From contig JAKOVR010000143.1 in NCBI GenBank assembly GCA_029782025.1, forward strand, positions 62,001 through 126,000: 64,000 nucleotides of DNA, in the 5' to 3' direction. The translations under genes were made by a program, and so were the position numbers. Shown in pieces: positions 49,943-53,122 of this stretch. The notes beneath the pieces are model-generated. The model searched no databases. It had not been told where the DNA came from and saw nothing but the letters and a program-made list of their open reading frames with translations. Origin of the DNA: Actinomycetes bacterium (GTDB taxonomy: Bacteria > Actinomycetota > Acidimicrobiia > Acidimicrobiales > Acidimicrobilacustridaceae). Position 1 is the stretch's first letter, and every line of letters starts with the position of its first letter.

Positions 49943-51072
49943 CGGCCCCCGCGGCCGCCCCGCCCGGGCGGCCGCGGCAGCTCCTCGCCGATCTCGGGGT
50001 GGTGCTGGTGCCGTCCCTCGTCGCCCGCGCCCTGGTGCTGCTCGGCTGGTACGTGGCCGGCGCGGTGGCGGCCTCGGGCGAGGGGCCCCGGCCGGTGGCG
50101 ATGGACCAGGGGCTCCTCGCGTGGGACGGGGCGTACTACCGCGACATCGCGACCATCGGCTACGAGCACCTGCCCGCCGACTCGTTGCGGTTCTTCCCCC
50201 TCTACCCGGTGCTGGCGCGCGCCGTGGCCCTGCCCTTCGGCGGCAACGCCGACCTCGGGCTCGTCGTCTTCGCCAACCTCAGCGCCCTCGTCCTCGGGGT
50301 CCTCGTGCTGCGCCTGGCCCGGCGAGAGCTGGGCCCGGAGGGCGGGCGCCGGGCCGTGTGGGCCGTGGCCGCCTTCCCGGGGGCCTTCGTGCTGTCGTGG
50401 GCCTACGCCGAGGCGCTGTTCCTGGCGCTGGGCGTCGCGTCCTACCTGGCCGCCCGGAACCGGCGCTGGCTCATCGCCGCCGCGCTGGCCGCCGGGGCCG
50501 GCCTGACCCGCCCGCTGGGGGTGCTGCTGGCCCTCCCGCTCCTCGTCGAGGCCTACGACGACTGGCGGGCCCCGGACCGCCTGTGGTCGGAGCGGGCGTC
50601 GATGGCGGCGGCGGTGGCGGCCCCGGTGGCCGGCACGCTGGCCTTCGTGGCCTGGGTGGAGCACGCGTGGGGCCGCTGGTTCCTCCCCTACACCGTGCAA
50701 TCGGACCTGCGGGGGGAGGCCATCGACCCCCTCCGCCGCCTCGCCCGTGGGGTGGTCGATCTGTTCGGGGCCGAGCGGTTCGGCGACGGCCTGCACGTCC
50801 CCTTCGCCATCGGCTTCGTGGTGCTGGCCGTGGTGGCGTGGCGCCGTCTGCCCCGGTCGGCCGCGGTGTACGCCACGGCCGTGCTGGTCGTGTCGCTCTG
50901 GGCCGCGAACCTCAACTCGCTGGAGCGCTACGCGCTCAACGCCTTCCCGCTGGCCCTCGCCGTCGCCGCCTGGGCCGGGACCGTCCGGCGGGAACGCCTG
51001 GTCCTCGCCGTCGGGGGCGCCGGCCTCGTCGGGCTCAGCAGCCTGGCGTGGCTGGGCCGCTACGTGCCCTGA
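49939..51072 (+). CDS. GT-C-type mannosyltransferase, PIG-V-like
   Basis: A 377-residue polytopic protein. LLAWDGAYYRDIATIGYE near residue 60 and LRFFPLYPVLARAV are the WDxxxYxxIAxxGY and FFPLYP motifs of the PIG-V/Gpi18-like branch, which adds mannose from a polyprenyl-phosphate donor. GLTRPLGVLLALPLLVEAY is the third conserved block. It is translationally coupled to the upstream GT-C gene, so the pair probably acts on the same glycan. The 3' end overlaps the convergent lipoprotein gene by 13 bp. Confidence 0.82.
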   Translation: MTAPAAAPPGRPRQLLADLGVVLVPSLVARALVLLGWYVAGAVAASGEGPRPVAMDQGLLAWDGAYYRDIATIGYEHLPADSLRFFPLYPVLARAVALPFGGNADLGLVVFANLSALVLGVLVLRLARRELGPEGGRRAVWAVAAFPGAFVLSWAYAEALFLALGVASYLAARNRRWLIAAALAAGAGLTRPLGVLLALPLLVEAYDDWRAPDRLWSERASMAAAVAAPVAGTLAFVAWVEHAWGRWFLPYTVQSDLRGEAIDPLRRLARGVVDLFGAERFGDGLHVPFAIGFVVLAVVAWRRLPRSAAVYATAVLVVSLWAANLNSLERYALNAFPLALAVAAWAGTVRRERLVLAVGGAGLVGLSSLAWLGRYVP

Positions 51073-51539
51073 CGGCTGCCGAACACCAGCCGCTTGTCGT
51101 CGGCGACCTGGTTGTCGGGGGCGGCGGCGATCACGGCCACGTAGTGCTGGGCGTCGTCGCAGGGCAACGTGATCCGGACATCTCCCGAGAGCGGGGCGGG
51201 ATCGGGGAGCTGCACGTCGTCCACGACGATCACCACCCGGTCGGCGCCCCGGGCGGTGTACCGCACCCGGGTGGCGACGGGCTGGTCGCCCCGGCACGGC
51301 GGGGGCGCGTCGACCTCGAGGCCCTCGACGGCGGGGGCCGGGAACGAGCCCGGGGTGGCGCCGCCGGCCACGAGGGTGGAGCGGGGCAGGCGGATCGTCG
51401 GGTTCACGATCGGGCGGGCGGTGCCGGCCGGGCGGGCCGTGGTGGCCGGTACCGATCCGTCGGTGCCGCTGGTGCACGCCGCCGACCAGAGGGCGGCGAG
51501 GACGCAGAGCAGGGCGGAGGCCGGGCGGGGTGGGCGCAC
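51060..51539 (-). CDS. Putative lipoprotein of unknown function
   Basis: A 159-residue exported protein. Signal peptide ASALLCVLAALWSAAC with a lipobox-like SAAC, a Thr/Ala/Pro-rich linker, and a small beta-rich domain (about 65-159). Conserved-looking pieces: PPPCRGDQPVATRVRYTARG and VRITLPCDDAQHYVAVIAA, with two cysteines that may pair. Resembles Ig-like extracytoplasmic modules; no family recognised. GTG 51539 stands 7 nt after TACCCT, which shares bases with the -10 of the divergent acyl-CoA synthetase gene. Confidence 0.68.
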   Translation of the reverse strand: MRPPRPASALLCVLAALWSAACTSGTDGSVPATTARPAGTARPIVNPTIRLPRSTLVAGGATPGSFPAPAVEGLEVDAPPPCRGDQPVATRVRYTARGADRVVIVVDDVQLPDPAPLSGDVRITLPCDDAQHYVAVIAAAPDNQVADDKRLVFGSRQGT

Positions 51540-51546
51540 GGGCGGG

Positions 51547-51556
51547 AGGGTAGCGT
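51547..51556. promoter_or_regulatory. Overlapping divergent -10 boxes
   Basis: Plus strand TAGCGT (51551-51556), 6 nt, GTG 51563. Minus strand TACCCT (51552-51547), 7 nt, GTG 51539. The two hexamers share TA at 51551-51552, so polymerase probably cannot open both at once. Confidence 0.6.
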
Positions 51557-51562
51557 CGCCCC

Positions 51563-53122
51563 GTGACGCTCTTCGACGTGGCCCGCCTCCGCCCCGACGA
51601 GGTGGCCGTCGACGACCTCGAGCGGACCCGGACCTGGGCCGGGTTCGCCGACCGGTCGGTGCGGCTGGCACGGGCGTTGCGGCACGGGCTCGGGGTGGAG
51701 CCCGGGGATGCCGTCGCCATGGTGGCCGGCAACCGGGTGGAGGTCCTCGAGCTGTCGGTGGCCGCGCTGCTGTCCGGCGTGTGGATCACGCCCGTGAACT
51801 GGCACCTCACGGCCGACGAGGTGGCCTTCATCCTCGAGGACGCCGGGGCGAAGGCCCTGTTCGTCGATCCGGCCCACGGCGCCATGGCCGCGGCCGCGGC
51901 CGACGCCGCCGGCGTGACCACCCGCATCGCCTTCGGCGACGAGCTCGACGCCCTCGCCGCGTCGGCCAGCGACGAGCCGTTCCCGCACGACGGCCCGGCG
52001 GGCGGGTCGATGTTCTACACGTCGGGCACGACGGGGCGACCCAAGGGCGTGCGCCGGGCCACCCGATCCACCCTCGGGGCGCAGCTCGGCACCGTTCCCG
52101 CCGCTGGCACCGCGCTCGGACTCGACGGGCTCGGCCCCCACCTCGTCACCGGACCGCTGTACCACGCCGCCCCGATCGGGTTCGCCCTGATGGACATGCA
52201 CAACGGAGCGCCGCTGGTGGTCATGCCCCGCTGGGACGAGACGGCCTGCCTCGACCTGATCGACGGTCGGCAGGTGCGCAACACCCATCTGGTCCCGACC
52301 ATGTTCGTGCGCCTGCTCCGGCTCCCCGACGCCCGGCGCGAGGCCTTCTCCGGCCGGTCGCTGCACACCGTCCTCCACGGGGCCGCCCCGATCAGCCCGA
52401 CGGTCAAGCAGCGGATGATCGACTGGTGGGGCCCGGTGCTGGTCGAGTACTGGGGCGCCAGCGAGGGGGGCGTGGTCACGCTCGTCGGCGCCGAGGAGTG
52501 GATGGCCCACCCCGGCACGGTCGGGCGCCCGATCCCCAACCACGAGGTGTTCGTGGCCGACCCCGACACCGGCGCCGTGCTCCCGCCCGGCGAGGTCGGC
52601 ACGCTGTGGTGCCGGAACCTCACCGTGGCCGGCGCCCACGAGCAGGGCGAGGGCGACGGTCTGGTGTTCCGCTACCACAACGACGAGGACAAGACCCAGG
52701 CCGCCGTCCGGGCGCCGGGCACCTACACCATCGGCGACCTCGGGTACGTCGACGCCGACGGCTACGTCCACCTCGCCGACCGGGCCTCGCACATGATCAT
52801 CTCGGGCGGGGTCAACATCTACCCGGCCGAGATCGAGCACGTGCTCATCGAACACCCCGCCGTGCGCGACGCCGCCGTGTTCGGGATCCCCGACGACGAG
52901 TGGGGCGAGTCGGTCAAGGCCGCGGTCGAGCTCCTGCCCGGGGCCGTCCCGGGCCCCGAGCTCGCGGAGGCGCTGCTGGCCCACGTCCGGGAGCGCCTGG
53001 CGGGGTTCAAGGTGCCCCGCTCCGTCGACTTCCACGACGCCCTGCCCCGCCACGAGTCGGGGAAGCTGTACGTCCGGCGCCTTCGTGACCCCTACTGGGA
53101 AGGGCGCGCCCGGCGCATCTGA
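51563..53122 (+). CDS. Acyl-CoA synthetase (AMP-binding, FadD-like)
   Basis: A 519-residue ANL-family enzyme that activates a carboxylate as acyl-AMP and passes it to CoA. Motifs: FYTSGTTGRPKGV (A3, near residue 151), YWGASEGG (A5), GDLGYVDADGYVHLADR (A7-A8 region), ISGGVNIYPAEIE and the catalytic Lys in HESGKLYVRRLR (about residue 500). The pattern resembles FadD-type ligases for steroid side chains or medium-chain acids, in line with the P450 and MaoC genes elsewhere in the window, but substrate is open. Start GTG is leaderless-type. Confidence 0.92.
   Translation: MTLFDVARLRPDEVAVDDLERTRTWAGFADRSVRLARALRHGLGVEPGDAVAMVAGNRVEVLELSVAALLSGVWITPVNWHLTADEVAFILEDAGAKALFVDPAHGAMAAAAADAAGVTTRIAFGDELDALAASASDEPFPHDGPAGGSMFYTSGTTGRPKGVRRATRSTLGAQLGTVPAAGTALGLDGLGPHLVTGPLYHAAPIGFALMDMHNGAPLVVMPRWDETACLDLIDGRQVRNTHLVPTMFVRLLRLPDARREAFSGRSLHTVLHGAAPISPTVKQRMIDWWGPVLVEYWGASEGGVVTLVGAEEWMAHPGTVGRPIPNHEVFVADPDTGAVLPPGEVGTLWCRNLTVAGAHEQGEGDGLVFRYHNDEDKTQAAVRAPGTYTIGDLGYVDADGYVHLADRASHMIISGGVNIYPAEIEHVLIEHPAVRDAAVFGIPDDEWGESVKAAVELLPGAVPGPELAEALLAHVRERLAGFKVPRSVDFHDALPRHESGKLYVRRLRDPYWEGRARRI

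Follow-up and report, generated by a model that had tools for sequence, protein, structure and literature searches.

A predicted bidirectional promoter with two leaderless genes and overlapping -10 elements in a high-GC actinobacterium

Introduction

Bacterial bidirectional promoters are known from maps of transcription start sites, and in prokaryotes they have been defined by divergent start sites that lie 7–25 bp apart (PMC10268837). The common spacings between the two start sites are 18, 10 and 23 bp (PMC12825309). Five such promoters have been tested in E. coli, and in all five the basal activity was too low for the two directions to compete; competition emerged once one direction had been strongly activated (PMC12825309). 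In M. tuberculosis, the divergent leaderless genes prpD (Rv1130) and Rv1129c are jointly upregulated in starvation (PMC3898074).

Here we analyse a 29-bp stretch (51537–51565) within a window of 64,000 nucleotides, by which we mean the whole stretch of DNA under study. The first-pass annotation had described it as two divergent leaderless promoters with overlapping -10 boxes, forming a built-in either/or switch between a lipoprotein gene and an acyl-CoA synthetase gene. The sequence and a genome-wide spacer peak support leaderless-type -10 boxes that overlap by a TA; the switch itself is unsupported.

Results

Geometry of the locus

The plus strand at 51537–51565 reads CAC GGGCGGG AGGGTAGCGT CGCCCC GTG, that is CAC-N7-AGGGTAGCGT-N6-GTG, and the 23 bp between the minus-strand GTG (51539) and the plus-strand GTG (51563) make up the whole intergenic region. 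Both -10 hexamers lie inside a 10-bp shared core of the form A-N3-TA-N3-T (51547–51556), a type that recurs between other divergent gene pairs. TAGCGT (51551–51556, plus strand) is the predicted -10 element of the ligase gene, and TACCCT (51547–51552, minus strand, read from 51552 to 51547 and preceded by CGC) that of the lipoprotein gene. The hexamers overlap reciprocally on opposite strands, as the -10 elements of described bidirectional promoters do, and the overlap is limited to T51551 and A51552. This TA step forms -12T and -11A of the plus promoter and, with the strands exchanged, the same two positions of the minus promoter. The first-pass annotation had the coordinates, the 23-bp gap between the start codons and the TA common to both boxes exactly right.

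The first T of TAGCGT stands 12 nt before the plus-strand GTG (51563–51565) and that of TACCCT 13 nt before the minus-strand GTG (51537–51539), with the seventh base of the minus-side spacer just before the core. TANNNT at about 12 bp before the start codon, the mark of leaderless genes, is found on both strands. With +1 set 12 nt after the first base of each hexamer, the predicted starts fall at 51563 and 51540, 23 bp apart; since the minus-strand start may be 51539 or 51540, the predicted distance is 23–24 bp, as calculated from the positions of the hexamers and start codons alone. The offset is that of the 23-bp class, and not that of the 18-bp class, in which the hexamers share -7T and -11A within TANNNTA. 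An operator or regulator palindrome at the core was also considered and set aside: the symmetry of the core is confined to A, TA and T, and no independent support came up.

The plus-strand gene (51563–53122) encodes an AMP-binding acyl-CoA synthetase/ligase of 519 aa, with matches to Pfam PF00501 (4.1e-66) and PF13193 (2.2e-20) and with its best NCBIfam matches under the cut-offs. A start further upstream is impossible, because the in-frame stop 12 nt upstream of the GTG is the TAG of the gene's own -10 box, and the GTG is kept in all five aligned orthologues. The minus-strand gene (51060–51539) encodes a protein of 159 aa that has homologues in other genomes and no Pfam or NCBIfam family. It is probably a lipoprotein, given a short hydrophobic signal sequence ending in SAAC; the signal sequence and lipobox were assessed by eye. 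The gene names in the first-pass annotation are thereby borne out, the lipoprotein as a putative one and the ligase by PF00501. Both start codons were picked by a gene caller that is blind to promoters.

Leaderless genes across the genome

The genome is high in GC and comprises 4.63 Mb in 219 contigs. From it we sampled 61 stretches (827,871 bases) containing 736 genes, predicted from codon usage by a simple caller that takes no account of promoters, and TANNNT was scored at every spacer before the candidate starts of 682 of these genes. The hexamer occurred at spacers of 6, 7 and 8 nt in 56, 66 and 33 genes, respectively, against about four genes at each other spacer, and an ATNNNT control was flat. 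Some 23% of the genes (155/682) thus carry a leaderless signature at spacers 6–8, and no -35 signal was evident among them. TAGCGT is the joint commonest hexamer in this set (19/155), and TACCCT is an ordinary one (5/155). The spacers at our locus, 6 nt for the ligase and 7 nt for the lipoprotein, both belong to the peak classes. Owing to this sharp peak 6–8 nt before starts in 828 kb of sequence, both boxes at 51537–51565 are very probably leaderless promoters. An A directly after the -10 hexamer is rare among the leaderless-type genes (2/155). The A that creates a reverse box is likewise depleted on average (8/155), and six of the eight genes that have it also have a divergent upstream neighbour.

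The lipoprotein/ligase pair in relatives

A profile search with the lipoprotein gave matches in 91 of 397 genomes, most of them weak matches to the signal peptide. Fifteen loci (L105–L119) were checked for a neighbouring ligase, which besides the window was found only in G127, G095, G350 and G382, the last with another gene in between. From the ligase side, eight actinobacterial loci of 80 were inspected, together with one more relative (L003). The lipoprotein gene adjoins the ligase gene divergently in four other genomes, at L083 (G127), L084 (G095), L108 (G350) and L003, with intergenic distances of 108, 60, 83 and 82 bp, respectively, compared with 23 bp in the window.

The lipoprotein and ligase boxes overlap in none of these four relatives, whose start codons were chosen by eye. 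Before the lipoprotein start, L083 and L108 have TACCCT-N6-GTG, L084 has TAGCCT-N9-ATG and L003 has a Shine-Dalgarno-like stretch. Before the ligase start, TANNNT is absent from L083 and L108 and stands at N8 in the other two, as TAGTCT in L084 and TAACCT in L003. With no overlap in the four relatives, the two promoters look separately inherited and their overlap looks like a local shortening of the intergenic region; selection for the overlap at this gene pair is unsupported for the same reason. The overlap at the lipoprotein/ligase pair is apparently lineage-specific, judging from these sequences. In the relatives (L083 880–1488, L084 795–1412 and their neighbours), the lipoprotein gene is followed by a gene for a J-domain-like protein, recognised by eye from its HPD motif, at a place where the window has the end of a convergent gene.

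Recurrence of the shared core

The pattern CAYN{5,8}ANNNTANNNTN{5,8}RTG was found at 13 sites in the whole genome, compared with seven for a backward-read control. Nine of the 13 lie between genuine divergent genes, judged by coding frames on both sides and by codon-position GC, and they include a peptide deformylase/methyltransferase pair and a GroES-like gene. The narrower CAC/GTG form occurs three times in each direction of reading, which makes the motif count alone weak evidence; it is the gene context that separates signal from chance. With matched spacers, this offset has four genuine pairs, compared with a total of 12 sites for 31 other offsets (Poisson P ~7e-4). Among 16 start-pair combinations in the 828-kb sample, no doubly leaderless pair other than lipoprotein/ligase had this offset. 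The 18-bp form TANNNTA with leaderless starts occurs at one site in the genome, versus 13 in the backward control, and the use of the 23-bp form in its place may be due to the rarity of an A after the hexamer.

The search of related genomes that the first-pass annotation had proposed finds the same type of core between other divergent pairs, in the genome itself and across its order. Over 98 genomes of the order, a control pattern with an AT core outnumbered the TA core (1090 versus 793), since AT-richer genomes swamp the count; in the 34 low-background genomes, the TA core was found 158 times and the control 43 times. Raw motif counts were rejected as proof, with control patterns being equally frequent in AT-richer genomes. 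In a context check of one site per genome, with one locus in each set that could not be placed, both flanking frames reached at least 80 aa at 12 of 28 TA-core sites and at 6 of 29 AT-core sites. A pattern search in 31 genomes of the family showed that the same sites recur across species of a sister genus, between genuine divergent genes. Among the sister-genus loci are a conserved shared-core pair of oxidoreductase genes (L324–L329) and another in which an RsmD-like methyltransferase faces a zinc-ribbon-like protein of 57–62 aa (L330–L335), all named by eye; in L333, the small frame facing the methyltransferase has seven codons only.

A conserved peptide deformylase/methyltransferase pair

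The pair of peptide deformylase and an MTS-domain methyltransferase carries the shared core at L142 1501–1529 (G000:C169:35278–35306) of the same genome. Upstream regions of the methyltransferase were taken from 100 genomes, made up of 30 loci from a methyltransferase search, 60 further matches by rank (G136 and G171 were skipped) and 10 genomes of the sister genus. No deformylase lay in the fetched stretch of 13 genomes, which were dropped, leaving 87 with a divergent deformylase. The shared core stands at the same offset in 49 of the 87, belonging to 15 of the 22 families of the order; the 10 sister-genus genomes had been found through the promoter pattern and all have the core, and their exclusion leaves 39 of 77. 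In the remaining genomes, the pair has two leaderless boxes at another offset (16/87) or a deformylase box only (22/87). None of the 87 genomes has A, T, A and T in any of the five alternative arrangements (0/87), and among the remaining four-letter patterns the most frequent reached 25/87. Taken together, the sequence comparisons are strong evidence for the shared core acting as a functional unit at the deformylase/methyltransferase pair.

Peptide deformylase is generally essential and is not expected to be switched off against its neighbour, and the conservation of the core at this gene fits steady two-way expression better than alternation.

Two further features were seen at this pair. In some of the families with another offset (L295, L341, L350, L361 and others), the two boxes look like a shared core that has been pulled apart, with pieces of the core repeated to either side, as though a small duplication had separated the promoters. 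In family f54 (L303, L309, L314, L349 and L357), inspection by eye points to a leaderless mini-frame under the control of the core, with its end at the methyltransferase start or close to it; this suggests a coupled leader peptide.

Discussion

We consider it probable that the 29 bp form a bidirectional promoter of the 23-bp class with leaderless messages on both sides, giving weak expression in both directions without a latch. The sequence, the start codons, the genome-wide leaderless signal, the recurring architecture and the lack of overlap in relatives are observed; transcription, its strength and mutual occlusion at 51537–51565 are the inferred part of this reading. Weighing against it are the excess of the AT-core control over all 98 genomes, the CAC/GTG form being no commoner than its control, the missing overlap in the four relatives, the single case in the 828-kb sample and the depletion of the reverse-box A. 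The housekeeping sigma factor would recognise TAGCGT on the plus strand and TACCCT on the minus strand, with one TA step common to both elements and each promoter's -11A base-paired to the -12T of its counterpart. A polymerase bound in one direction would start at the GTG at 51563 and in the other at the GTG at 51539/51540, and both messages would begin at the start codon or within 1 nt of it. The core would hold no more than one polymerase at once; when firing is infrequent, the two directions would take turns, leaving both genes weakly expressed with nothing to latch either state. The overlap at this gene pair would have arisen through shortening of the intergenic region, an origin favoured by the fact that one TA serves two boxes.

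The mutual exclusion of two polymerases assumed by the first-pass annotation is standard knowledge, is stated for bidirectional promoters in general (PMC12825309) and may be expected at our locus. Occupancy of the core would be exclusive at any instant, yet exclusive binding does not make a switch. A switch would mean that a polymerase facing one way silences the other direction, with each cell making the lipoprotein or the ligase but not both. In its favour are the physical overlap of the two -10 boxes and the published activators that, by strongly raising one direction, can lower the other (PMC12825309). It is nevertheless unlikely. The basal activities of all five E. coli promoters tested were too low for competition (PMC12825309), prpD and Rv1129c rise together (PMC3898074), the overlap is absent from all four relatives with the lipoprotein/ligase pair, and the architecture is widely kept at peptide deformylase. 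An unsystematic look also identified no activator site or feedback gene.

The promoter might instead work in the plus direction only, for the ligase, with the minus box a by-product of the palindromic TA and a chance A, and with the lipoprotein transcript coming from another site, such as one within the ligase gene. Once one box exists, a single further base and a well-placed start codon suffice for the second, the extra A is found in 8 of the 155 leaderless genes anyway, and the lipoprotein of L003 has a Shine-Dalgarno-like sequence in place of a box. Against this, the lipoprotein keeps a box of its own in L083, L108 and L084 where there is no overlap with a ligase box, and six of the eight leaderless genes with the reverse-box A have a divergent upstream neighbour. 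We regard a one-sided promoter as improbable.

It is very unlikely that the ligase is led by a Shine-Dalgarno sequence, with the purine run GGGAGGG (51544–51550) as the ribosome site and transcription coming from further upstream. The run is present, but it ends 12 nt before the GTG, which is longer than the usual Shine-Dalgarno spacing, and most of it coincides with the complementary strand of the minus -10 box; TANNNT at a 6-nt spacing, moreover, is a peak class in the genome. Chance coincidence without any promoter function, for which one may cite the seven control sites against 13, is exceedingly unlikely in view of the nine sites between genuine divergent starts and of the 56 genes at spacer 6 and 66 at spacer 7, where the background per spacer is about 4/682 genes.

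With two-way expression from a shared core as the preferred reading, the sequence comparisons suggest that 51537–51565 is a genuine, tightly packed version of a promoter type already known in bacteria and that it does not constitute evidence of an either/or switch. A wider proposal, to which we give about even chances, is that the A-N3-TA-N3-T core with its two start codons is an ancient regulatory unit that selection has kept in the order. It would serve as a minimal promoter for both directions, set the translation start of either gene and couple their output, as it may do at the deformylase/methyltransferase pair in 15 families. The lipoprotein/ligase promoter would then be an independent, recent instance, in which polymerase competition limits and smooths expression rather than switching it.

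Because the start codon marks +1 in leaderless genes, the shared-core architecture can be read from sequence alone. This makes evolutionary questions testable without RNA, including which of the offsets occur, for how long a promoter stays shared and how it comes to be split, and the deformylase/methyltransferase pair provides a ready comparative system (49/87 genomes). The lipoprotein/ligase pair itself is the more ordinary result, a real but apparently lineage-specific overlap.

Our locus resembles the pseudo-symmetric -10 bidirectional promoters described by Warman, Grainger and co-workers (PMC12825309, PMC10268837) in its opposite-strand -10 overlap, its predicted 23-bp spacing and its position between two protein genes. 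It differs from them in that both messages are predicted to be leaderless, with the start codons at +1 and an intergenic region of 23 bp, in that no -35 signal is evident in the leaderless genes of this genome, and in being known here from sequence alone. With the leaderless genes of actinobacteria (PMC3160421) it shares TANNNT about 12 bp before the start codon, a spacer of 6–8 nt and a high-GC actinobacterial genome, although divergent overlapping pairs are not treated in the passages of that paper that we consulted. The prpD (Rv1130)/Rv1129c pair of M. tuberculosis (PMC3898074) similarly has divergent genes with two leaderless mRNAs, as predicted here, but the passages on this pair and on closely juxtaposed divergent promoters state no -10 overlap. 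No description of doubly leaderless promoters with a shared -10 was found in the open-access literature searched. Bidirectional promoters as a kind are already known; what appears to be new, from the sequence comparisons, is that both genes are predicted to be leaderless and that one such unit has been kept across the order.
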